This document shows positions 5,768 through 16,067 of a stretch of 64,000 nt of DNA, one piece after another; positions within the stretch are counted from its first letter, which is position 1, and each line of letters starts with the position of its first letter. A model generated the notes under the pieces. That model was given only the letters and a program-made list of their open reading frames with translations. It did not search any database and had not been told where the DNA came from. The stretch comes from Pectinatus haikarae. GTDB lineage: Bacteria > Bacillota > Negativicutes > Selenomonadales > Selenomonadaceae. The position numbers and the translations under genes are program-made. Location: positions 651,001-715,000 of the forward strand of contig NZ_WIQM01000016.1 in the NCBI RefSeq assembly GCF_015732185.1, given 5' to 3'.

Positions 5768-6924
5768 TGCCAGCGCATGCAATATTAAGCGCATCCGGCA
5801 GTAAAAGGTGGCTGGCCTGCCCACCGTCGGCACTTCTGGAAACAAAGTTTCCCGATACTAGTAGCGAAGCCGCAAGGGAAGGTACCTTCGCACATTATGT
5901 AGCAGAAAAGATTTTGTCGAACTATTTATCCAAGGAACCATTAATAGAAAACCAGCTGCTCTCTCCTTTAAGAGGCAGAGAATTTTATAGCGAAGATCTG
6001 ATCGGCTATGTCCGTGAATATACGGATGCGTGCATTGAAAAGATTAATGCCGCTAAGGCTGCCGACACGATGGCAGTTGCTTTCATTGAAGAAAAGTTGG
6101 ATTTTTCAAAATGGGTACCAAAGGGATTCGGGACCGGTGATTGCGTCATTATCTCAGACGGAATTCTTGAAATTATTGACCTAAAATATGGCAAAGGTGT
6201 TCCAGTATCCGCAGAAGGCAACACACAGATGCAGCTCTATGCTCTGGGGGCAATTGACGCATACAACATGCTTTACGATTTTGACCTTGTCCGTATGACT
6301 ATTGTACAGCCACGGAACGGTGGCGTGTCACAGCAGGAAAAGTCAGTGAAAGAATTGCTGGAATGGGCCTGTGACGTAGTACAGCCGACAGCGGCGCGGG
6401 CAATAAAAGGTGAAGGTGAGCTATGCGCTGGTGATCACTGCCAATTCTGCCGGGCAGCTTTAAAATGTAAAACCTACTCAGACTACTGCATGGAAATTGC
6501 AAAGCTCGAATTTAGAGGGGCGAACCTGCTGGACGATGAAGACATCGTTTTAGTTCTGGAGCGTGTTGATCATTTAGTTAGCTACGCTAAAAAAATAAAA
6601 GAATTTGCCTTAGGGGAAGCCCTAAACGGCAAGAAATGGACCGGTTTTAAAATTGTTGAAGGTAAAAGCAGACGAGTATACTCCGATGATAGCAAAGTCG
6701 CTGACACGCTGAAAACTGCCGGTTATAAAACAGACCAGATATTTAAGCCTAAAGAACTGCTGGGGCTCACTGAAATGCAGAAACTTTTAACCAAAAAGAA
6801 ATTTGATACTTTGTTATCAGACCTTATCACAAAACCTGCCGGCAAGCCCGCTTTGGTACCAGCAACCGATAAAAGGCCGGAGTATAACCCGGTCGAAGCT
6901 GATTTTAAAAATTTAATGGAATGA
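5767..6924 (+). CDS. DUF2800 protein (RecB-like PD-(D/E)XK nuclease family)
   Basis: 385 residues, start ATG 5767 overlapping the upstream TGA. The opening SASGSKRWLACPPSA and EGTFAHYVAEKIL, the core IIDLKYGKGVPV (nuclease D-x(n)-E/DxK region) and the cysteine cluster CQFCRAALKCKTYSDYC match the DUF2800 family, related to Cas4/RecB-type nucleases with a likely Fe-S or zinc cluster. It sits directly before the ssDNA-binding-like gene and the polymerase, so a role in phage recombination or DNA end processing is likely. Confidence 0.88.
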   Translation: MPAHAILSASGSKRWLACPPSALLETKFPDTSSEAAREGTFAHYVAEKILSNYLSKEPLIENQLLSPLRGREFYSEDLIGYVREYTDACIEKINAAKAADTMAVAFIEEKLDFSKWVPKGFGTGDCVIISDGILEIIDLKYGKGVPVSAEGNTQMQLYALGAIDAYNMLYDFDLVRMTIVQPRNGGVSQQEKSVKELLEWACDVVQPTAARAIKGEGELCAGDHCQFCRAALKCKTYSDYCMEIAKLEFRGANLLDDEDIVLVLERVDHLVSYAKKIKEFALGEALNGKKWTGFKIVEGKSRRVYSDDSKVADTLKTAGYKTDQIFKPKELLGLTEMQKLLTKKKFDTLLSDLITKPAGKPALVPATDKRPEYNPVEADFKNLME

Positions 6925-6940
6925 AAGAGGTAATTATATT

Positions 6941-7516
6941 ATGAAAGAAACATCAAAAACCAGAACAGTATTACAGAACGTCCGTTTATCCTACGCCCAC
7001 ATTTGGGAACCGGCAGAAGACCTGAACGGTAGTCTCAAATACAGTGTATCACTTATAATCCCGAAGGACGATAAAGCCAATCTGGCACGTATCAAGAAAG
7101 CCATTGAGGCAGCCAAGATCGAGGGTAAATCCAAGCTGGCCAATAAAAAAGGTGTTATCCCATCAAACATAGATTTACCTGTCAGGGATGGTGATGTAGA
7201 CCGTGCGGACGATGAAAACTATGCCGGCTGCTATTACCTAAATGCCAAAGCCAATCCTGATCACGCGCCTAAGATTGTTGACCATAAGTGTGAACCTGTC
7301 ATGGACCAGAGCGAGGTTTATTCCGGCTGCTATGCCCATGTATCGGTAAACTTTTTTGCCTACAACAAAAACGGCAACTCCGGTGTAAGCGTTGGCTTAG
7401 GCAACATCATGAAATATAAAGACGGTGAACCATTATCCGGTGGTGCGTCCGCAGAAGAAGATTTTGCGGATTTGACCAGCGACGAAGATGAATCGGCAGA
7501 CAACTTTTTAAATTAA
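6941..7516 (+). CDS. DUF2815 single-stranded-DNA-binding-like protein
   Basis: 191 residues. VRLSYAHIWEP, KYSVSLIIPKDD, DGDVDRADDENYAGCYYLNAK and YSGCYAHVSVNFFAYNK match the DUF2815 family found with DUF2800 in Firmicute phages and considered OB-fold ssDNA-binding-like. The tail is strongly acidic (SDEDESADNFLN), like SSB tails that recruit partners. GAAAGAGG precedes the ATG. It probably coats ssDNA for the polymerase and nuclease encoded alongside. Confidence 0.86.
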   Translation: MKETSKTRTVLQNVRLSYAHIWEPAEDLNGSLKYSVSLIIPKDDKANLARIKKAIEAAKIEGKSKLANKKGVIPSNIDLPVRDGDVDRADDENYAGCYYLNAKANPDHAPKIVDHKCEPVMDQSEVYSGCYAHVSVNFFAYNKNGNSGVSVGLGNIMKYKDGEPLSGGASAEEDFADLTSDEDESADNFLN

Positions 7517-7536
7517 ACTTTGATCGACAACAGCAA

Positions 7537-7566
7537 AAGCCCGCGTGTTATATGCGGGCTTAAAAA
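7537..7566 (+). terminator. Hairpin between the ssDNA-binding and polymerase genes
   Basis: AAGCCCGC-GTGTTATAT-GCGGGCTT is a perfect 8-bp stem followed by AAAAATT rather than a T-run. It could attenuate transcription, or process or stabilise RNA between the two genes. It also shows that the polymerase frame's upstream codons (7545 onward) are not coding. Confidence 0.4.
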
Positions 7567-7580
7567 TTAGGGATGATGTC

Positions 7581-9530
7581 ATGGATACACTAGCGATAGA
7601 TATTGAAACGTACAGTGACTTAGATATTAAAAAAGTTGGTGGTTATAAATACGCCGAAAACTGCGAAATACTTTTATTTGGCTTTGCTTTTAACGATGAT
7701 CCGGTAGAAGTTATAGATATGACAAAAGATAAGTTGCCCGGCGAATTATGCGAAATATTAAACAATCCGCTTGTCTTAAAAACAGCCTACAATGCCCAAT
7801 TTGAGCGCACAGTGTTAAGTCATTATCTGGAGCGCGCAACATTTTTACCCGCTGCACAGTGGGCCTGCACTATGGTATTATCGCTTACACTCGGGATGCC
7901 GGGAAGCCTAGAACGAGATTCAAAGGTCTTAAATTTATCAGAGGATGAAGCTAAATTGTCAACGGGCAAAAGCCTTATACAGTACTTTTGTAAGCCATGC
8001 AGGCCGACAAAGACAAACGGAGGCAGGGTTAGAAATATGCCGGAACATGCGCCGGATCGCTGGCGGCAGTTTATAGAGTACAACCGCCGGGACGTTGAAA
8101 CAGAGCGCATTATCCGTAAAAAGATGGAACGCTTTAAATTAAAAAAATCCGAACAAAAATTATACGCACTTGACCAGCAGATAAATGATCGCGGTGTAAA
8201 GATTGATATTAACTTAGTCGAAAAAGCCATAAAAGCTGACACGGAGTTTAGCAAAAAGATAAGCAGCGAGGCTGTCAGGATATCAGGCTTGGCAAACCCC
8301 AACAGCGGGGAACAGCTGAAACGCTGGATTGAAAAGCAGGAAGGTTTTTTCCCGGCATCGATAACAAAAAATAATATTGCTGAAGTAAAAGAAAAATGCC
8401 GGAGTTCGGCAGTCAGAAAAATGCTTGACTTGAAAATGCTTTTATCAAAAACCTCCGTAAAAAAATATACGGCTATGGAAATCGCCCGCTGCAACGATGG
8501 TCGGGTGCATGGACTTTTACAGTTTTACGGGGCAAACCGGACTGGCCGTTGGGCCGGCCGGCTCGTGCAGGTGCAGAATTTACCACGTAATTCAATGCCC
8601 GATTTGGACGATGCGAGAACACTTTTAAAGATCGACGGTGAGCTGCTGGAAATGCTTTATGACAATATACCTGATGTCTTGTCGCAGCTTATCAGGACCG
8701 CTTTTATACCAAAGGTTGGATGTACCTTTATAGTAGCCGATTTCTCGGCAATAGAGGCAAGGGTAATAGCATGGCTGTCAAATGAGAAATGGCGGTTAAA
8801 GGTATTCGCTGACGGCGGGGATATTTACTGCGCATCAGCTACGCAAATGTTTAAAGTACCAGTTGTGAAGCATGGGGTCAATGGCGAGTTGCGGCAGAAG
8901 GGCAAGATAGCTGAATTGGCACTTGGCTATCAGGGCTCCGTTGGTGCACTTAAAAAGATGGGTGCTGATAAGATGGGCCTTTCAGATGATGAACTGGTTG
9001 AAATAGTGGCAAAATGGCGTAAAGCCAGTCCAAATATTGTCCGGTTTTGGTACGATATTGAAAATGCTGCCAAAAAGGCAATCAATGAAAAAATGTTTGT
9101 GAAACTGCCAACGCATCATTTGACAATGAGGTATGAAGCAGGAATGCTGCGCATTGAATTACCATCCGGCAGAATAATATCCTACATTCGCCCGCGAATC
9201 GAAAAAAACAGCCAGGGCAGGGATGCAATAACCTATGAAGGTATGGAGCAGGCAAGCAAAAACTGGGGCAGGCTGGAAACCTACGGCGGCAAACTGGTTG
9301 AAAACATTGTACAGGCAACGGCGAGAGATTGTTTAGCCGTTGCAATGCGCAGGCTTGACCAGCATGATTTTAAAATTATCATGCACGTGCATGACGAGGT
9401 GATCATAGAACACGAAGATCCTAATGCATTAAAGGCAGCCTGCGATATCATGGGCCAGCCGATAGACTGGGCGCCAGGACTGCTGTTAAATGCCGACGGA
9501 TATACAACAAATTATTATAAAAAGGACTGA
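7581..9530 (+). CDS. Phage family A DNA polymerase with 3'-5' exonuclease
   Basis: 649 residues from ATG 7581 (AGGGATGA upstream; codons from 7545 lie in a hairpin). The N-terminal exonuclease opens with LAIDIETYSD, carrying the DxE motif. The polymerase domain shows ANRTGRWAGRLVQVQNLPR, motif A DFSAIEARVIAWL, a motif B-like KGKIAELALGYQG and motif C HVHDEVIIE. This is the DNA Pol I-type replicase of many Firmicute siphophages. Together with VapE and the putative clamp gene it suggests substantially self-encoded replication. Confidence 0.95.
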   Translation: MDTLAIDIETYSDLDIKKVGGYKYAENCEILLFGFAFNDDPVEVIDMTKDKLPGELCEILNNPLVLKTAYNAQFERTVLSHYLERATFLPAAQWACTMVLSLTLGMPGSLERDSKVLNLSEDEAKLSTGKSLIQYFCKPCRPTKTNGGRVRNMPEHAPDRWRQFIEYNRRDVETERIIRKKMERFKLKKSEQKLYALDQQINDRGVKIDINLVEKAIKADTEFSKKISSEAVRISGLANPNSGEQLKRWIEKQEGFFPASITKNNIAEVKEKCRSSAVRKMLDLKMLLSKTSVKKYTAMEIARCNDGRVHGLLQFYGANRTGRWAGRLVQVQNLPRNSMPDLDDARTLLKIDGELLEMLYDNIPDVLSQLIRTAFIPKVGCTFIVADFSAIEARVIAWLSNEKWRLKVFADGGDIYCASATQMFKVPVVKHGVNGELRQKGKIAELALGYQGSVGALKKMGADKMGLSDDELVEIVAKWRKASPNIVRFWYDIENAAKKAINEKMFVKLPTHHLTMRYEAGMLRIELPSGRIISYIRPRIEKNSQGRDAITYEGMEQASKNWGRLETYGGKLVENIVQATARDCLAVAMRRLDQHDFKIIMHVHDEVIIEHEDPNALKAACDIMGQPIDWAPGLLLNADGYTTNYYKKD

Positions 9531-9574
9531 TTAAAACGAATATAGCAGCATTTTATAAATGGGCACCAAAACTT

Positions 9575-10282
9575 GTGAATAAAAAGGCGGTCAAATATCT
9601 GGAAAGAGTAGTCTACAGTACAAAAGACTGGCTATATATCTGCAACGATGCTAGGTTTATTGCAATCCGTAATAGCACAAATTTGCCAGAAGGGCCACTC
9701 GAGGCCGCTACTTTACAACCATTAAAAGATGACAACGCACAATATGATGTAACATACAACCGTCGTAAAAGCTTTATAGGTCAATGGTTAAATATGAACA
9801 GTGAAGAAACAGTGTCTATCGTGCCAGCTGATTGGCTATCAGCGGTGAAAATACTCGAGTCAATTATGTGTGCAGTTAGACTGTCCAATAAAAAAGTGGT
9901 ACCTGTACTGATTACTGCGCAAGGAGATAAGGTTAATGCTCAACTACATTTACATGAAGAAACCCATAATTTCGATACCATACGTGGGGCATTGCCATAT
10001 AAAGGTAGTTGGAAAGGTTGGGCAGTTGTAGATGTTAAACTGCTGGCGGAAACAATCAGATTGGCCAAGGCATTAACGGGGGAAGACGAGTCTTTAATTA
10101 TGAGCTTTATACGGTATGAGCGGGATATAGGACAAGCACGGCGTATTAAAAATTTTGAAGAAGGCACGCCAAGTCCTTTTTTAAAATTTACAAGCACTGA
10201 TCTGAAAATAATAATCGCAGGATTTAGGATGCCTCTTAAACCTTATAAGGACCTGAATATATTTGAAACAACGGAGGATTGA
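9575..10282 (+). CDS. Hypothetical replication protein, possibly sliding-clamp-like
   Basis: 235 residues from GTG 9575. The C-terminus, SPFLKFTSTDLKIIIAGFRMP, recalls the end of DNA polymerase III beta clamps, and its length is close to two-domain phage clamps such as T4 gp45, but this resemblance is weak. The gene follows the polymerase. GTG 9575 has no good ribosome site; the open frame continues upstream as NIAAFYKWAPKL to ATT 9530, which overlaps the polymerase TGA and is 3 nt after AAAGGA. Initiation at ATT is therefore possible. Confidence 0.6.
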   Translation: MNKKAVKYLERVVYSTKDWLYICNDARFIAIRNSTNLPEGPLEAATLQPLKDDNAQYDVTYNRRKSFIGQWLNMNSEETVSIVPADWLSAVKILESIMCAVRLSNKKVVPVLITAQGDKVNAQLHLHEETHNFDTIRGALPYKGSWKGWAVVDVKLLAETIRLAKALTGEDESLIMSFIRYERDIGQARRIKNFEEGTPSPFLKFTSTDLKIIIAGFRMPLKPYKDLNIFETTED

Positions 10283-10288
10283 TATTTA

Positions 10289-10801
10289 ATGAATGGCATA
10301 GCTAACCAAATGAAACAACAGTTAGAGGTTTTGGACGATTTGAAAAAATTGCAGGACGAAGCAGAAAAAGAAAAATTGTTTGGCAATTCTACGAATGAAG
10401 AACATAAAATGATACCTTTTGATATTGATAATCCGTTATGCCGTCGCCTGGCCATGCAGTCAGACCGGATAAAATTTTTTCTGCCAGGTACCTCTTTTGA
10501 TTTATACACCGCGGGCAAAAAACTTAAAAACTGTGTGGGGGCATACGTAGACGAGGTTAAAAATAAAGAAACGCAGATAGTTTTGGTATCCGATGATAAA
10601 GGCAAATTAGTTGTATGCATAGAGGTTAAAAATAATAAAGTCGAACAGGCTAAATTATTTGCAAATAAATGCGTGTCTACGGATCCGCTGTTAAACGCAG
10701 AAGTGATTGACTGGGCTGAAAAGGCGAAAATAGACTGGCAAGGCTGCAGCGATATCAAGCAGAGAGATAACTATTTGATGCCTTTACCGGCTGCCGTATG
10801 A
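10289..10801 (+). CDS. PcfJ-like domain protein
   Basis: 170 residues. After a helical N-terminus, residues 60-135 read LYTAGKKLKNCVGAYVDEVKNKETQIVLV, then KLVVCIEVKNNKVEQAKLFANK. This LKNCVGxY...VxxxxxxI motif set is characteristic of PcfJ-type proteins from plasmids and phages, whose biochemical role is unclear. GGAGG precedes the start, and only six bases separate it from the upstream gene. It is probably part of the replication operon. Confidence 0.68.
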   Translation: MNGIANQMKQQLEVLDDLKKLQDEAEKEKLFGNSTNEEHKMIPFDIDNPLCRRLAMQSDRIKFFLPGTSFDLYTAGKKLKNCVGAYVDEVKNKETQIVLVSDDKGKLVVCIEVKNNKVEQAKLFANKCVSTDPLLNAEVIDWAEKAKIDWQGCSDIKQRDNYLMPLPAAV

Positions 10802-10822
10802 CCATGAAGGAAGGTGTACAAC

Positions 10823-13255
10823 ATGCGGGCAAGCGAAAAGCCGGCAGTCTCAACAATAAAACATGACGGTGAAATTAATATCGCCGTTGGTCATAGCCGA
10901 AAATCCAAAGCCTGGAAAAATAAAATGCTGCTCTGGTCAGCGCTTGTCAAGAGGCTTAGTGAGACAAAGCGCACAAATGAAACAGCAGCAATATACCGAA
11001 AATTATCAAAGCTGAAGCAGGATGAAATAAAAGACGTTGGCGGCTTTGTAGGCGGTACCTTAAAAGGTGGCCGCCGTACCGCTGATAATGTTGGCTGGCG
11101 TCAAATAATAACGCTTGACGCCGACTTTGCGGATAGCGACTTTTGGGATAATGTTGCTATCGGGATTGGTGGCTGCGCGGCTCTCGCCTACAGTACACAC
11201 AAGCACACCAAAGATACTCCGCGCTTTAGGCTGGTACTGCCGCTGTCACGAAGCGTAAACCCTGATGAATATCAGGCGATAGCCAGAAAAATTGCAGATA
11301 ATATCGGCATTGATATGTTTGATGATACCACTTATCAGCCGCACAGGCTGATGTATTTTCCGAGCACTCCCGCTGACGGCGAGTTCTATTTCAAGTTTTA
11401 TGACGGTCCGTGGTTTGACGCCGATAAATGCCTGGATACGTATCCAGACTGGACGGACCAAAGCTATTGGCCAACCAGCTCAAGACTTACCGATGCAATA
11501 AAAAAACATGCGGCAAAGCAGGAAGACCCACTGGATAAAAAGGGAATCATTGGCGCTTTTTGCCGGACCTACACAATACAAGAGGCCATATCAAAATTTC
11601 TGCCTGATGTCTATGAACCCTGCGGCGCTGATGACCGGTATACCTATAAGGAAGGCTCGACCAGTGCCGGGGCAATCGTGTATGACAATAAATTTTTATA
11701 CTCGCACCATAGCACAGATCCTATCAGTGAGATGCTGGTAAATGCTTTTGATCTCGTCAGAGTGCACAAGTTCCGCGGTATGGATGAAGACGCATCGGAA
11801 AGCACAAAAACAGTCAGCCTGCCAAGCTACAAAGCTATGCAGCGTTTAGCTGCGGATGATGATAAAACCAAAATTTTAATAGGTCAGGAACGATTAGCAG
11901 AAGCGCAGACTGATTTTAAGAATGTAAAAACCGATAATGGTGAATGGCTGAAAAAGCTTGATATTAACAAGTGGGGTGCATATGAAAATACCCCGAAAAA
12001 CGTAAAAGTGATCTTAGAGAATGATCCCAATCTAAAAAACTGTTTGGGGAGTGATGAATTCGCTCACAGATGGATAATATTAAATAATCTGCCTTGGCAC
12101 GATAAAAGCAAAGGTGTCGTATGGCGTAACGAAGACGATAGTATGCTCAGGAACTATTTAAGCGACGTTTACGACATTTCCGGCAAGGATATCATAAATG
12201 ATGCATTGGTTGAGGTCGTTGACAGACACAGCTTTCATCCAGTTAAGGAATACATCAGAAAACTGCAATGGGATGGCATACCACGACTTGAAACGCTGTT
12301 TATAGACTATCTGGGGGCACAGGATACAACCTTTAATCGCACTGTTTCCCGTAAAACCTTAGTGGCGGCAATAGCAAGGATTCTAAGCCCCGGCTGTAAG
12401 TTTGACTATGTGTTGACCTTTATCGGGGCGCAGGGGATAGGCAAGAGTTACATGCTAAAAAAGCTTGCCGGTAAATGGTGTTCAGACAGCCTGACAACTC
12501 TTTCCGGCAAGGAAGCAATGGAAGCAGTGCAGGGATTCTGGATTATAGAACTCGCCGAATTATCGGCTCTTAGAAAATCGGAACTGGAAGCCACGAAGCA
12601 GTTTATAACCAAACAGGAAGACAGCTTTAGGCCTGCATATGGCAGGCGCACAGAGCAGTATCCAAGGCAATGCATATTTATTGCCACGACAAACGAAAAT
12701 GACTTTATACGGGACCAGACGGGGGGCCGCCGCTGGTGGCCGATGCTGGTAGATAAGGGCAGCGCCAAGCGTACTGTAAAGGATTTGACGCAGGATGAGA
12801 TAGATCAGGTATGGGCTGAAGCCAAGCACTTTTATGATACGGGAGAACAGCTATATCTGCCGGATAACATGGAAATTATAGCAAAAGAACTACAGGAGTC
12901 ACACACAGAATCAAGCCCGCTGGCAGGCATGATAAGCGAATATCTTGATAAGCTGCTTCCAGAGAACTGGGAAAGCATTGATATAGGCGAAAGACGGGCA
13001 TTTATTAATGATGATGGCTTTACATCTGAACTTAAGGGAACTGTACAGCGGGACCGCGTTTGTGCCTTAGAGATATGGATAGAACTACTGAATGGCGATC
13101 CCAAACGGCTTGACAGGTTAAAAGCAAATGAGATAAACGGCATTTTACGCAAAATGCCGGGCTGGGAGGCATCAAGAAATGGGTTAAGATTTGGACGGTT
13201 TTATGGTTTTCAAAGAGGTTTTCAAAGAGGTTTTATTAGAAAGGATGAGAGCTAA
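10823..13255 (+). CDS. VapE-family replicative primase-helicase
   Basis: 810 residues from ATG 10823 (AAGGAAGG upstream). The N-terminal part (about 1-230) is primase-polymerase-like: GTLKGGRRTADN, ITLDADFADSDFW and PRFRLVLPLSR with the DxD acidic pair. The C-terminal half is a VapE/D5-type SF3-like helicase: Walker A GAQGIGKSYMLKKL, Walker B region IIELAELSALRKSE, and FIATTNENDFI with GGRRWWP. It most likely initiates phage replication. The TGATACA repeat cluster begins immediately after its stop, the usual place for an origin recognised by such a protein. Confidence 0.93.
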   Translation: MRASEKPAVSTIKHDGEINIAVGHSRKSKAWKNKMLLWSALVKRLSETKRTNETAAIYRKLSKLKQDEIKDVGGFVGGTLKGGRRTADNVGWRQIITLDADFADSDFWDNVAIGIGGCAALAYSTHKHTKDTPRFRLVLPLSRSVNPDEYQAIARKIADNIGIDMFDDTTYQPHRLMYFPSTPADGEFYFKFYDGPWFDADKCLDTYPDWTDQSYWPTSSRLTDAIKKHAAKQEDPLDKKGIIGAFCRTYTIQEAISKFLPDVYEPCGADDRYTYKEGSTSAGAIVYDNKFLYSHHSTDPISEMLVNAFDLVRVHKFRGMDEDASESTKTVSLPSYKAMQRLAADDDKTKILIGQERLAEAQTDFKNVKTDNGEWLKKLDINKWGAYENTPKNVKVILENDPNLKNCLGSDEFAHRWIILNNLPWHDKSKGVVWRNEDDSMLRNYLSDVYDISGKDIINDALVEVVDRHSFHPVKEYIRKLQWDGIPRLETLFIDYLGAQDTTFNRTVSRKTLVAAIARILSPGCKFDYVLTFIGAQGIGKSYMLKKLAGKWCSDSLTTLSGKEAMEAVQGFWIIELAELSALRKSELEATKQFITKQEDSFRPAYGRRTEQYPRQCIFIATTNENDFIRDQTGGRRWWPMLVDKGSAKRTVKDLTQDEIDQVWAEAKHFYDTGEQLYLPDNMEIIAKELQESHTESSPLAGMISEYLDKLLPENWESIDIGERRAFINDDGFTSELKGTVQRDRVCALEIWIELLNGDPKRLDRLKANEINGILRKMPGWEASRNGLRFGRFYGFQRGFQRGFIRKDES

Positions 13256-13256
13256 A

Positions 13257-13361
13257 ATGGGTGATACAAAGTCTGATACATTGAAAAAGTTTGTATCAGA
13301 AATATTTACAATATTACACTTTTTAGTAAAAACAGCAAGACTTGAAAATGATACAATCTAA
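13257..13361 (+). CDS. Tiny hypothetical protein embedded in the repeat cluster
   Basis: 34 codons from ATG 13257, preceded by AGGATGAGAG, one base after the VapE stop. The peptide (MGDTKSDTLKKFVSEIFTIL) has no known motif. Four TGATACA repeats lie inside it and constrain its sequence, so the DNA may matter more than the peptide. Confidence 0.35.
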   Translation: MGDTKSDTLKKFVSEIFTILHFLVKTARLENDTI

Positions 13362-13539
13362 AAATGTGTATCGGGTTTTGTATCACCTTTTAACGCAGTA
13401 ACCGCAAGGATAATATTCTTCTTGATACATTGATACAAAATATATATAGAGAGTTTGAAAGTTAAAATAATACATACATATGTACATATACGTTTTAACT
13501 TTCGATATACATTACGCGCGAGAAAAAAAGTTTGTATCA
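13262..13539. repeat. TGATACA iteron-like cluster, candidate replication origin
   Basis: Eight exact copies of TGATACA or its complement occur at 13262-13268, 13274-13280, 13292-13298, 13349-13355, 13379-13385, 13423-13429, 13431-13437 and 13533-13539, plus a degenerate copy (TGTATCG) at 13367-13373. Several extend to TTGATACAA. The tandem pair at 13422-13437 is two TTGATACA units. Chance would give far fewer than one in this length. An AT-rich dyad (13457-13503) lies within the cluster. Position between VapE and the VRR-NUC gene fits an initiator-binding origin. Confidence 0.6.
13457..13503. repeat. 11-bp inverted repeat with AT-rich centre
   Basis: GAAAGTTAAAA (13457-13467) is matched by TTTTAACTTTC (13493-13503). 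The 25-nt centre alternates purine and pyrimidine (ACATACATATGTACATATA). It could be the duplex-unwinding part of the origin or an operator for the downstream nuclease-helicase genes. Confidence 0.5.
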
Positions 13540-13551
13540 GGGGGTAAAAAA

Positions 13552-13833
13552 ATGCTTGAAAGAGACCTGGAACATAAATTTAAAAAGGAGGTACAGAAAC
13601 GACTAAATGCGTTTGTCTGGAAATTTGTCAGTCCGGGAATTGCAGGAGTGCCGGACAGATTGGTAATCCTGCCGAATGGCAGATGCATTTTTGCAGAGCT
13701 GAAAAAAGAGGGTGAAACATTACGCCCTTTACAGCTTTACCGCAGGCAGCAGTTACAAAAAATGGGTATGGCTGTCTGGGTTATCGACAGCAATGAAAAA
13801 ATACGGGAGTTTATAAATGCCTATAAAGTATGA
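13552..13833 (+). CDS. VRR-NUC domain nuclease
   Basis: 93 residues from ATG 13552 (GGGGGT upstream). FVWKFVSPGIAGVPDRLVILPNGRCIFAELKKEG carries the VRR-NUC motifs GxPD and the ExK catalytic pair (ELK), followed by LRPLQLYRRQQLQKMG. Stand-alone VRR-NUC proteins are common next to SNF2 helicases in phages and are thought to be Holliday-junction or structure-specific nucleases. The frame stays open upstream through the repeat cluster to 13480, but no good start is there. It overlaps the helicase gene by 17 nt. Confidence 0.9.
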   Translation: MLERDLEHKFKKEVQKRLNAFVWKFVSPGIAGVPDRLVILPNGRCIFAELKKEGETLRPLQLYRRQQLQKMGMAVWVIDSNEKIREFINAYKV

Positions 13834-15193
13834 ACCGCGGAATTATCAGGAGTACTCAAAGAATCGAATAATCGACACGCCGGCCATAGCGTTAATGCTT
13901 GACATGGGGATGGGCAAAACAGTGTCCACATTGTCAGCGGTGGAAGATTTGATGTATGACCGCTTTGATATCAGAAAAGTTTTGGTTATTGCACCGCTGC
14001 GAGTTGCGCAGACAACATGGAACGATGAGTGCGATAAATGGTGGCATACCAGTTATTTAAAAATATCTGTCGTAGTCGGGGATTTAAAAGATCGCACAGC
14101 GGCGTTAAACCAAAAAGCTGATATTTACACGATAAACCGGGAAAACGTGCAATGGCTCGTAAACTATTATGGACGTAACTGGCCATTTGACATGATTGTG
14201 ATTGATGAGTCATCAAGCTTTAAAAATCCACAGGCTAAACGATTTAAAGAGCTAAAAAAAGTCAGGCCACTAGCTAAACGGGTTGTTGAGCTTACCGGGA
14301 CGCCAAGGCCAAACGGGCTGATGGATTTATGGAGTCAGATATATCTTTTGGACCGTGGTGAGCGGTTAGGCCGGACAATAACAGCCTACCGGGATAAATA
14401 TTTCACGCCGGGAAAACGTGACGGCCATATTGTTTACAGCTGGGAGCCGAAGCCGGCAGCAGAAAAAGAAATATATCACCGGATAAGTGATATCTGTATC
14501 AGCCTTAAAAGTGAGGATTATATAAAACTGCCACCCATAATCTATAACGAGGTAAAAATAGATCTGCCGGCTGGTGTAATACAAAAATATGAGGCTATGG
14601 AAAAGGATTTGATCATGGCCATGGGCGATAAGGTTGTAACCGCTAGCAATGCGGCTGCCCTGACAAATAAATTGTTGCAGATGGCCAGCGGTGCAGTTTA
14701 TGACGAGGATAAAAACATAATCCGGCTGCATGATTCAAAAATAAATGCCTTATCCGAAATTGTGGACTGTAACGAAGGGAAAAACATAATGGTGTTCTAT
14801 TACTTCAAACACGATTTAAAACGTCTTAAAAGGGCATTTCCGACAGCGAGAGAGCTATCCACAGTTAACGATATACGTGACTGGAACAACGGAAAAATAA
14901 AAATGGTTTTAGTGCATCCTGCCTCCGCGGGGCATGGATTGAATTTACAGCATGGTGGCAGCATAGTAGTCTGGTTTAGTCTTAACTGGAACCTTGAGCT
15001 ATACCAGCAGGCCAATAAGCGCCTGCATCGTCCGGGGCAGAAAAGTACAGTCGTTATAAACCTGCTGATCGCAAAAGGTACAAAAGATGAGGATGTAATA
15101 AAGGCCTTGCGGTTAAAAGATAAAGGTCAAAAATATATGCTTGAAGCTATAAAAGCAAAAATTGATAAATTTAAAATTGGAGGCGTGAAATGA
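13817..15193 (+). CDS. SNF2-type DEAD/DEAH helicase
   Basis: 458 residues. Motif I DMGMGKTVSTLSA, motif II VIDESSSF (DESS), motif III ELTGTPRPNG, motif V HPASAGHGLNLQ and motif VI QQANKRLHRPGQ are all present, so both RecA-like lobes are intact. Phage SNF2 helicases of this size pair with VRR-NUC proteins, and the genes overlap here. A role in replication fork handling or recombination is likely; direct functional data for this subfamily are sparse. Confidence 0.93.
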   Translation: MPIKYEPRNYQEYSKNRIIDTPAIALMLDMGMGKTVSTLSAVEDLMYDRFDIRKVLVIAPLRVAQTTWNDECDKWWHTSYLKISVVVGDLKDRTAALNQKADIYTINRENVQWLVNYYGRNWPFDMIVIDESSSFKNPQAKRFKELKKVRPLAKRVVELTGTPRPNGLMDLWSQIYLLDRGERLGRTITAYRDKYFTPGKRDGHIVYSWEPKPAAEKEIYHRISDICISLKSEDYIKLPPIIYNEVKIDLPAGVIQKYEAMEKDLIMAMGDKVVTASNAAALTNKLLQMASGAVYDEDKNIIRLHDSKINALSEIVDCNEGKNIMVFYYFKHDLKRLKRAFPTARELSTVNDIRDWNNGKIKMVLVHPASAGHGLNLQHGGSIVVWFSLNWNLELYQQANKRLHRPGQKSTVVINLLIAKGTKDEDVIKALRLKDKGQKYMLEAIKAKIDKFKIGGVK

Positions 15194-15375
15194 ATATTTA
15201 CGCGCTCTATCAAGGCGAAGAATATTCATATACAGGTACCATATACGAAATAGCTGAACACCAGCACATCAAAATATCCAGTCTTTATGGATATGGAACG
15301 CCAGCCCGTAAAAAGCGAATGAAACCGGGTAGCAAGCAGAAAATATTAATAAAATTGGAGAAATATAAAGCATGA
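15190..15375 (+). CDS. Small hypothetical protein
   Basis: 61 residues, starting MNIYALYQGEEYSYTGTIYEIAEHQHIKISSLYGYG and ending in a lysine-rich tail. The N-terminal part looks like a short beta-rich unit followed by a helix-turn-helix-like stretch (IYEIAEHQHIKISSLYGYG), so DNA binding is conceivable. TTGGAGG precedes the start, which overlaps the helicase stop. No family recognised. Confidence 0.7.
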   Translation: MNIYALYQGEEYSYTGTIYEIAEHQHIKISSLYGYGTPARKKRMKPGSKQKILIKLEKYKA

Positions 15376-16067
15376 TAAAAATAGAAAGTCAGAATAAGGG
15401 GATGCCGCTATGGTGTGCAAACTGCAAAAGTGAATATGATGTTAAACTTATAAGCTTACAAAATTCCGAAATTGATAGAAATATAATTCCACTGTGTAGG
15501 GATTGTCGTAAAAATTTGATGGAATTGTTAATGTGTGATTTGGAGAGTGATAACAATATGGAACGCGGGAATTATATGAGTATTGATAGGGTTAAGAGGT
15601 TTTCAGGCATAGTAAATATACCGCCGGAGCAAATTAAATGCCGTGAACCTAAACCACCAGTCAGGCCATCGTGTGTGACAAAACATAAAAATCCTGCTGG
15701 CTTTACACCAAAACCGGTACCCGAGGTAAAACAGGCTGTGAATGAGCTGGTTGAGCCGGTAAATAAAGCATTTCCGCAGGATAATTCACAACCCACAGAT
15801 ACCACAAATAAACAATTTCCGCAAGATAGCGAAGAAAATGAATACAGATACCTTAATGCCGCATGGCTTGATGAAATTGCAACCGGATTAACCGCAGGAA
15901 TTAAAAAACATCCCGGAGAAACATGGCATGATATCCCGGTCAATGAACATCTTGCAAGAGCGTTTAGACATATAAATCTCATGCGTATAGGTGATAGATC
16001 GGATAATCATATAATAAACGCGTCAATGCGGCTGATGATGGCATATGTAGTTGACAGGAATAAATAA
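15372..16067 (+). CDS. DUF5664-like protein with N-terminal zinc motif
   Basis: 231 residues. The N-terminus has CANC and CRDC (residues 15-45), a possible zinc site. The middle (80-155) is Pro/Asn/Gln-rich and disordered. The C-terminus, YLNAAWLDEIATGLTAGIKKHPGETWHDIPVNEHLARAFRHI, resembles DUF5664 (dATP/dGTP diphosphohydrolase N-terminal-like) domains. Four-base overlap with the previous gene. A nucleotide pool role is only suggested by family. Confidence 0.65.
   Translation: MIKIESQNKGMPLWCANCKSEYDVKLISLQNSEIDRNIIPLCRDCRKNLMELLMCDLESDNNMERGNYMSIDRVKRFSGIVNIPPEQIKCREPKPPVRPSCVTKHKNPAGFTPKPVPEVKQAVNELVEPVNKAFPQDNSQPTDTTNKQFPQDSEENEYRYLNAAWLDEIATGLTAGIKKHPGETWHDIPVNEHLARAFRHINLMRIGDRSDNHIINASMRLMMAYVVDRNK

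Follow-up and report, generated by a model that had tools for sequence, protein, structure and literature searches.

Short repeats crowded behind a gene for a primase-helicase raise the question whether they form a replication origin and, if so, which protein reads them. In this work we focused on such a locus, the gap at positions 13256-13551 of a 64-kb stretch of DNA (the window), which lies directly after a vapE gene. A sequence-only reading had noted here a dense cluster of TGATACA heptamers and had proposed it as a phage replication origin.

The repeat array and its setting

The gap is bordered on its left by vapE (10814-13255, forward strand), which codes for a VapE primase-helicase of 813 amino acids (PF05272, E = 3.2e-80; phrog_256, E = 0), the proposed replication initiator. 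On its right flank lies a gene for a VRR-NUC-type nuclease (13552-13833, forward strand; phrog_93, E = 6.5e-27), which served as linkage control. Its product had no Pfam match at 1e-3, and the gene at the equivalent position of phage QT1 is annotated VRR-NUC. A SNF2-type helicase gene follows (13817-15193, forward strand; PF00176, phrog_62). On the 5' side of vapE, Pfam matches indicated genes for an A-family DNA polymerase and an Enc34-type ssDNA-binding protein, and on the 3' side lie genes for the terminase large subunit, the portal, a Clp-like protease and the major capsid protein (scan without tail genes). The gap region is the replication region of a prophage. A PICI satellite was ruled out by the element's own terminase, portal, protease and capsid genes, and a lambda-type origin by the position of the iterons outside the initiator gene. 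An initiator of the RepA_N or plasmid iteron type was ruled out as well, no RepA_N or Rep_3 domain having been found among the eight proteins scanned around the gap (Pfam, E ≤ 0.001).

Eight exact TGATACA/TGTATCA copies and one degenerate copy are found within 278 bp (13262-13539), as first reported. All nine are located 3' of the VapE stop codon (13255), the first beginning 7 bp beyond it. By word count, the forward-strand iterons lie at 13262-13268, 13274-13280, 13349-13355, 13423-13429 and 13431-13437, and the reverse-strand ones at 13292-13298, 13379-13385 and 13533-13539. Reading of the sequence added the degenerate CGATACA on the reverse strand (13367-13373; TGTATCG on the forward strand) and the tandem TTGATACA pair at 13422-13437, also described before, whose members are the iterons at 13423 and 13431. 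The array is lopsided, with seven exact iterons and the degenerate copy to the left of the dyad described below and a single exact one (13533-13539) to its right.

In 2000 dinucleotide-preserving shuffles of the gap TGATACA occurred 0.076 times on average and at most twice, in agreement with the earlier estimate of well below one by chance, and the commonest heptamer of any sequence reached a mean of 2.6 and a maximum of 6, compared with the eight copies observed. Elsewhere in the 64 kb scanned, copies were isolated, as had been stated, with at most one per 300-bp window, so that no unrelated region showed an equal density. The whole window contains 23 copies, 9.9 being expected, and 8 of the 23 belong to the cluster.

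Between the tandem pair and the right-hand iteron lies an AT-rich spacer (13438-13530; 25% GC over 13440-13531), which is the proposed melting region. It contains the dyad GAAAGTTAAAA (13457-13467) / TTTTAACTTTC (13493-13503), whose 11-nt arms are 100% complementary and the same in a sibling prophage. The claim of a dyad in AT-rich surroundings was thus borne out, although the array around it is not symmetric. Within the dyad, purines and pyrimidines alternate over 24 nt (13470-13493), the longest such tract in 50 shuffles being 14 nt. A 24-nt unit bearing an iteron pair is also repeated at 13274, 13349 and 13423 (within 13274-13446; 100, 79 and 71% alike), successive starts lying 75 and 74 bp apart, or about seven helical turns.

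Searches for other kinds of signal gave negative results. Rfam returned no match at the gathering score over 10500-16000, so that no known structured RNA was seen there, and 13150-13650 contained neither promoter-like sites (2.2 expected in shuffles) nor terminator-like sites. The GC skew of the window did not change sign at the gap and gave no origin signal in the integrated prophage. A first scan of viral records with a single protein yielded no relative. The DNA of 13150-13560 had no match in phage records, and the protein was therefore used to find relatives. A search for the core that tolerated up to 3 mismatches, run on 60 genomes, namely that of the window and those of 59 relatives, located it only twice, both times in the window's genome.

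Gaps downstream of vapE in related loci

VapE relatives were present in 1022 of 50,697 phage records at E ≤ 1e-5. The 569 loci collected and the window slice (570 sequences) were reduced to 302 distinct loci by removing 10 without a VapE match, 252 duplicates, 3 with short downstream DNA and 3 extra copies of the window or of locus L017. A VRR-NUC gene lies downstream in 284 of the 302, preceded in 268 by a gap of 150-700 bp (median 274.5 bp); the other 34, in which the gene was absent or the gap outside these limits, were set aside. The gap after vapE is also kept in Listeria phage LWP01 and C. difficile phage phiCDKH02, both with the repeated word TGTCAACA, and in two staphylococcal phages, with words of the AGGGACG/AGGCACG type and TGATGCAACA.

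When the 268 gaps were searched for motifs without guidance, 254 yielded a repeat that outscored all 20 shuffles and the remaining 14 did not. After exclusion of 26 motifs that did not exceed the shuffles or scored 24 or less, 242 were aligned. The aligned iterons share a right half, ACA, and vary in their left half, a consensus biased towards ACA by the omission of 41 poorly aligned motifs. Removing 10 further loci without a usable anchored tail (see below) and 35 near-identical ones left 156 loci, among which 40 different words occur at iteron positions 3-6, in a set chosen for alignability and hence favouring ACA.

The gaps share one order: left iterons, an AT-rich stretch with the GC minimum, an alternating purine-pyrimidine tract and right iterons. 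Over the 156 loci the density of sites is two-peaked; it is high on the left, drops from the GC minimum at 60-65% of the gap and climbs again near the right end. The alternating tract is found at about 73% of the gap, with a median length of 16 nt as against 8.7 in shuffles, and exceeds all 50 shuffles in 86 of 156 loci. An initial test of left/right agreement had placed 93 of 99 in the top 10%, but it was circular, one motif having chosen the sites on both sides, and was replaced. When a matrix built from the left-hand DNA only was run against the right-hand DNA of 100 loci, the locus's own DNA had a median rank of 2 (0 being best) and was in the top 10% in 73 of 100; the best match exceeded all 50 shuffles for 57 of 100 own right-hand sequences and for 6 of 100 taken from another locus. 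Therefore, most of these loci carry the same word on both sides of the core.

In 10 of the 302 loci the VRR-NUC gene starts within 7 bp of vapE and leaves no gap. In the three that were read in detail, TGTGAACA/TGTGTACA words form an array, again with an alternating core, some 2 kb further downstream (L139:6350-6740, L297:8115-8420 and L133:8560-8890), with scores of 65.9, 32.7 and 47.1 as compared with shuffle maxima of 21.6, 17.9 and 23.8. According to the open frames listed for L139, its displaced array begins at the end of a helicase gene. The array can therefore shift its place in the module without losing its form. In a coarse 8-mer scan, L134, L135 and L291 showed words of a similar type 2-3 kb downstream, and an iteron-like cluster was not detected in the DNA fetched for L039, L138, L205 and L531. 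L138 and L531 also have unusual VapE tails, which resemble PYGRQRYYERR. A different word, ACCTTCCAC, is repeated at about 15 sites downstream of a distantly related VapE-like gene (locus L022, genome G030); it scores above all 20 shuffles and possibly represents another family of iteron origins.

Joint variation of the VapE tail and the iterons

A second prophage in the same genome (contig C7; L017, the sibling) is 98-99% identical to that of the window over 11.0 of 15.6 kb and differs in one divergent block, which runs from a PcfJ-like gene to the gap. The two vapE genes are 89.8% identical at the DNA level. Up to codon ~785, the preceding ~300 bp of the genes agree at 97-100%. Divergence then sets in over the final ~30 codons and the left iterons, and it ends at the core, which is again 97-100% identical. 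Beyond this unchanged core the two prophages part once more at the right-hand iteron, and they show no difference in the aligned stretch of the VRR-NUC gene. The window combines the word TGATACA with the tail RFGRFYGFQRGFQRGFIRKDES, and the sibling the words TGTCAACA/TGTAAACA with the tail RFGKIYGRQRGFIRK. As delimited by sequence comparisons, the tail that differs together with the iterons comprises residues 785-813 (13166-13252, forward strand).

Upstream, the divergent block takes in 9533-13434 of the window and 5673-10296 of L572 (contig C7, same genome), which are otherwise 98-99% identical. The sibling has a 561-codon frame (5994-7679) whose end matches the PcfJ-like ORF of the window (10289-10801, 170 aa) and which, judging from this overlap, is probably PcfJ-like itself. 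The window instead has an ORF of 235 aa (9575-10282) ahead of the PcfJ-like one, with no Pfam or PHROG match.

Similar switches occurred in other lineages, and 11 clades contain at least one. A C. difficile phage (L002) and two IMG/VR loci (L119 and L120) have VapE bodies that are 99-100% identical and tails that are 59-64% identical, with the words TGTCAACA, TGGTAACA and TGTCTACA, that is three tails with three iterons. The tail and word of L120 recur in a C. difficile genome (L028). L167 and L182, IMG/VR loci akin to staphylococcal phage QT1, have bodies that are 98% identical and carry GTAACA and GGGACG. Locus L327 is a hybrid, in which the left iterons, TGTCAACA, match its tail and the right ones are of the TGTCTACA type with one base different; this looks like a crossover inside the gap. 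Unlike the window and the sibling, two co-resident VapE loci in one Schaedlerella genome (L065 and L076) share one word, GGAACA, which speaks against a strict need for co-resident prophages to differ in their iterons.

The association was quantified on 367 pairs among the 156 loci, at least 70% identical in residues 1-740 (the body), by partial rank correlation with body distance held constant. Iteron distance correlated with the distance between 20-residue tails at a partial rho of 0.519, a value reached in none of 500 within-clade permutations. Other 20-residue windows of VapE gave at most 0.278, the highest lying in residues 676-755, which overlap the modelled C-terminal region, and windows of the VRR-NUC protein on the other flank gave -0.18 to 0.075. 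Identical 20-residue tails were found in none of the 70 pairs with a body identity of at least 75% and clearly different iterons, and in 4 of 182 pairs of intermediate iteron distance.

The tail contains a YG-x-Q pattern, in the window Y797-G798-F799-Q800 (13202-13213, forward strand), x being F799. The residue x differs in 96% of the switched pairs (64 of 67) and in 25% of the 151 conserved pairs; the three switched pairs that share it include L206/L340, the sole switched pair of its clade. The strongest single residue-base association was that of x with iteron position 5 (z = 14.5; 150 permutations, uncorrected for relatedness). One x may go with several words, as R does with TGTCAACA, GGATACA and GGAACA. 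A YG-x-Q-like pattern was required to anchor the tails, which partly accounts for Y, G and Q hardly varying in the pair statistics; independent support comes from the 10-sequence alignment, in which Y797, G798 and Q800 are invariant.

The signal is one of relatives. An all-pairs test of the Mantel type (20,100 pairs), in which the tail was aligned to the columns of the window and deep clades dominated, did not single out the tail. The anchoring on YG-x-Q and the restriction to relatives were chosen after this result, and six identity cut-offs were hence compared. The tail leads at body identities of 90, 80 and 70%. At 60%, x leads with 0.42, followed by the best other window (0.36) and the tail (0.31), and at 50%, x and the best window are level at 0.21 and the tail falls to 0.07. 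Over all pairs regardless of relatedness, the anchored tail gives -0.005, x 0.11 and the best other window 0.13; a universal code linking tail and word is therefore not supported. For loci less than 60% identical in the body, the nearest tail nevertheless came with the same word in 24 of 144 cases, as against 8 of 144 for the nearest body.

Structural models place the tail in the wing of a C-terminal winged helix. AlphaFold2 modelled the whole VapE from 61 sequences with a mean pLDDT of 88.8, and the last 134 residues from 86 sequences with 90 residues at a pLDDT of at least 90. The C-terminus is predicted to be a winged helix (residues 748-805; 13055-13228, forward strand), in which helix 768-780 takes the place of the recognition helix and strands 784-805 form the wing, containing the tail. 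The nearest solved structure to the C-terminal model is 7pds, PriRep1 with dsDNA (Z 12.9 over 114 residues), whose molecule name is 'Similar to D. nodosus vapE'; the next matches, with Z of 5 or less, include several winged-helix proteins. VapE is 34% identical to 7pds in the Foldseek alignment (sequence match E = 2.4e-80), and RYGEGIGKQYGFS, near the C-terminal end of 7pds, is aligned with the VapE tail of the window. Since the helix in the recognition position differs at only one residue between the window and the sibling, the wing appears, from these models of the protein alone, to be the likelier reader of the iterons. The N-terminal domain had originally been suggested as the binding part, to be used in gel shifts; the joint variation and the models predict the C-terminal winged helix instead.

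Interpretation and comparison with known systems

The best explanation of the gap, to which we give a probability of roughly 0.87, is an iteron replication origin read by VapE. What sequence comparison established is that the array exists, that its place and layout are conserved, and that tail and iterons change together among relatives. In the mechanism that we propose, VapE would bind the TGATACA iterons through its C-terminal winged helix, the wing with YG-x-Q setting the sequence preference. Bound on both flanks of the AT-rich alternating core, it would assemble helicase rings, which would melt the core and allow replication to start. VapE has a primase-like N-terminal part of its own, and an A-family DNA polymerase and an ssDNA-binding protein are likewise encoded by the phage. 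Together, tail and iterons act like a single specificity cassette that passes between related phages and leaves the remainder of the replicon where it was.

The main competing account of the joint change is hitch-hiking, in which a single recombination block replaces tail and iterons, the reader being something else or the tail having another role. The left array directly adjoins the tail, the divergent blocks end in conserved flanks and the association fades across deep divergence, all as this account would have it. Yet the VRR-NUC gene, about equally near on the other side, shows no association, and the right-hand iteron of the window differs from that of L017 with the core between them unchanged. 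Moreover, the signal peaks at x rather than spreading evenly along the tail, and the nearest tail predicts the word better than the nearest body among distant loci. We thus consider hitch-hiking improbable.

The repeats might also be the sites of a phage transcription regulator for the genes after VapE, unrelated to replication. Operators typically contain repeated words, and these words do lie between genes, shortly before the start of one. Such an operator cluster, however, would leave the co-change with the VapE tail unexplained, lacks promoter-like and terminator-like sites in its vicinity, and does not fit L139, L297 and L133, where the array stands ~2 kb further on and not ahead of the VRR-NUC gene; it has very little probability in our view. 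Equally improbable is that the iterons merely titrate VapE, as incompatibility or decoy sites of the kind used in phage-encoded resistance, with replication starting elsewhere. Phage origins on plasmids can serve as decoys and plasmid iterons are often used for copy-number control. However, an AT-rich alternating core between two arrays of one word is what an origin needs, and titration and origin functions can coexist.

Starting from an origin read by VapE, a broader reading can be put forward, which we hold to have an even chance of being right. Temperate phages with VapE would carry exchangeable origin-specificity cassettes, made up of the last ~25 VapE residues and the iterons, in which a wing centred on x reads the variable left and middle parts of an iteron with a constant ACA end and the helix occupying the recognition position hardly changes. 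These cassettes would define replication compatibility groups, letting near-identical prophages share a cell or escape interference directed at the origin. Both of these functions, compatibility of sibling prophages and escape from interference, are speculation.

VapE-type primase-helicases are common, and the comparison predicts the location of their origins, the end of VapE that recognises them and the residue that should be tested. It also provides natural swap pairs with otherwise nearly identical proteins, a system in which the specificity of a protein for DNA, and its evolution by cassette exchange, can be directly tested. Among the papers listed by searches of open-access literature, none dealt with the origins of VapE phages.

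Among known systems, the lambda origin (ori-lambda) likewise joins a phage initiator, O, with iterons and an AT-rich stretch. The lambda iterons, however, lie inside the initiator gene, and O, which has no relation to VapE, is not a helicase, whereas the iterons of the window lie past the VapE stop. The satellites of Vibrio cholerae (PLE) resemble the window in another respect: passages of PMC8263062 describe a RepA whose DNA-binding domain co-varies with the origin, the two being apparently exchanged as a module, and report tests in which replication was supported only by cognate pairs. As described there, this initiator is of the RepA_N type, with iterons of ~30 bp and an N-terminal binding domain, and the element is a satellite and not a phage. 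For Cch2 of SCCmec elements, also a helicase, passages of PMC7581432 report that short direct repeats on the 3' side of its gene are bound by the C-terminal domain on its own, and that its closest homologue is the Rep of SaPI5. It resembles VapE in being a helicase with repeats 3' of its gene and in the C-terminal recognition that is predicted for VapE, but Cch2, according to the same passages, has three iterons only and is not in a phage.

The nearest likeness is to the Rep-ori systems of SaPIs and PICIs. In the parts of PMC7581432 that deal with SaPI Rep helicases (citing Ubeda 2007), the C-terminal domain recognises an iteron origin directly downstream of the rep gene, and in those of PMC6092414 that deal with PICI origins, two sets of iterons flank an AT-rich region. 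As far as these descriptions go, the window shares with them a VapE/D5-like (primase-)helicase as initiator, an array directly 3' of its gene and iterons that flank an AT-rich stretch to the left and right; that the C-terminus reads them was demonstrated there and is predicted here. The pair of initiator and iterons is consequently not new in kind, as the sequence-only reading had supposed. Its proposal of an iteron origin served by VapE stands, on the strength of the conserved position and layout and of the co-change; the N-terminal reader and the lack of precedent do not. Our element differs in being a phage with terminase, portal and capsid genes of its own, in the neighbouring genes of the VRR-NUC and SNF2 types, in the alternating tract and in its many iteron words. 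By analogy, the origin of the window probably works like a PICI replicon, yet the element is not a PICI. This kind of initiator-iteron origin was already known; what the present comparison adds is its presence across VapE phages, an extension of the PICI layout to phages, together with the alternating tract, the apparent link of specificity to the last VapE residues and its apparently repeated exchange. The best reading of the locus is thus, by analogy, that of a phage counterpart of the SaPI/PICI Rep-ori system.
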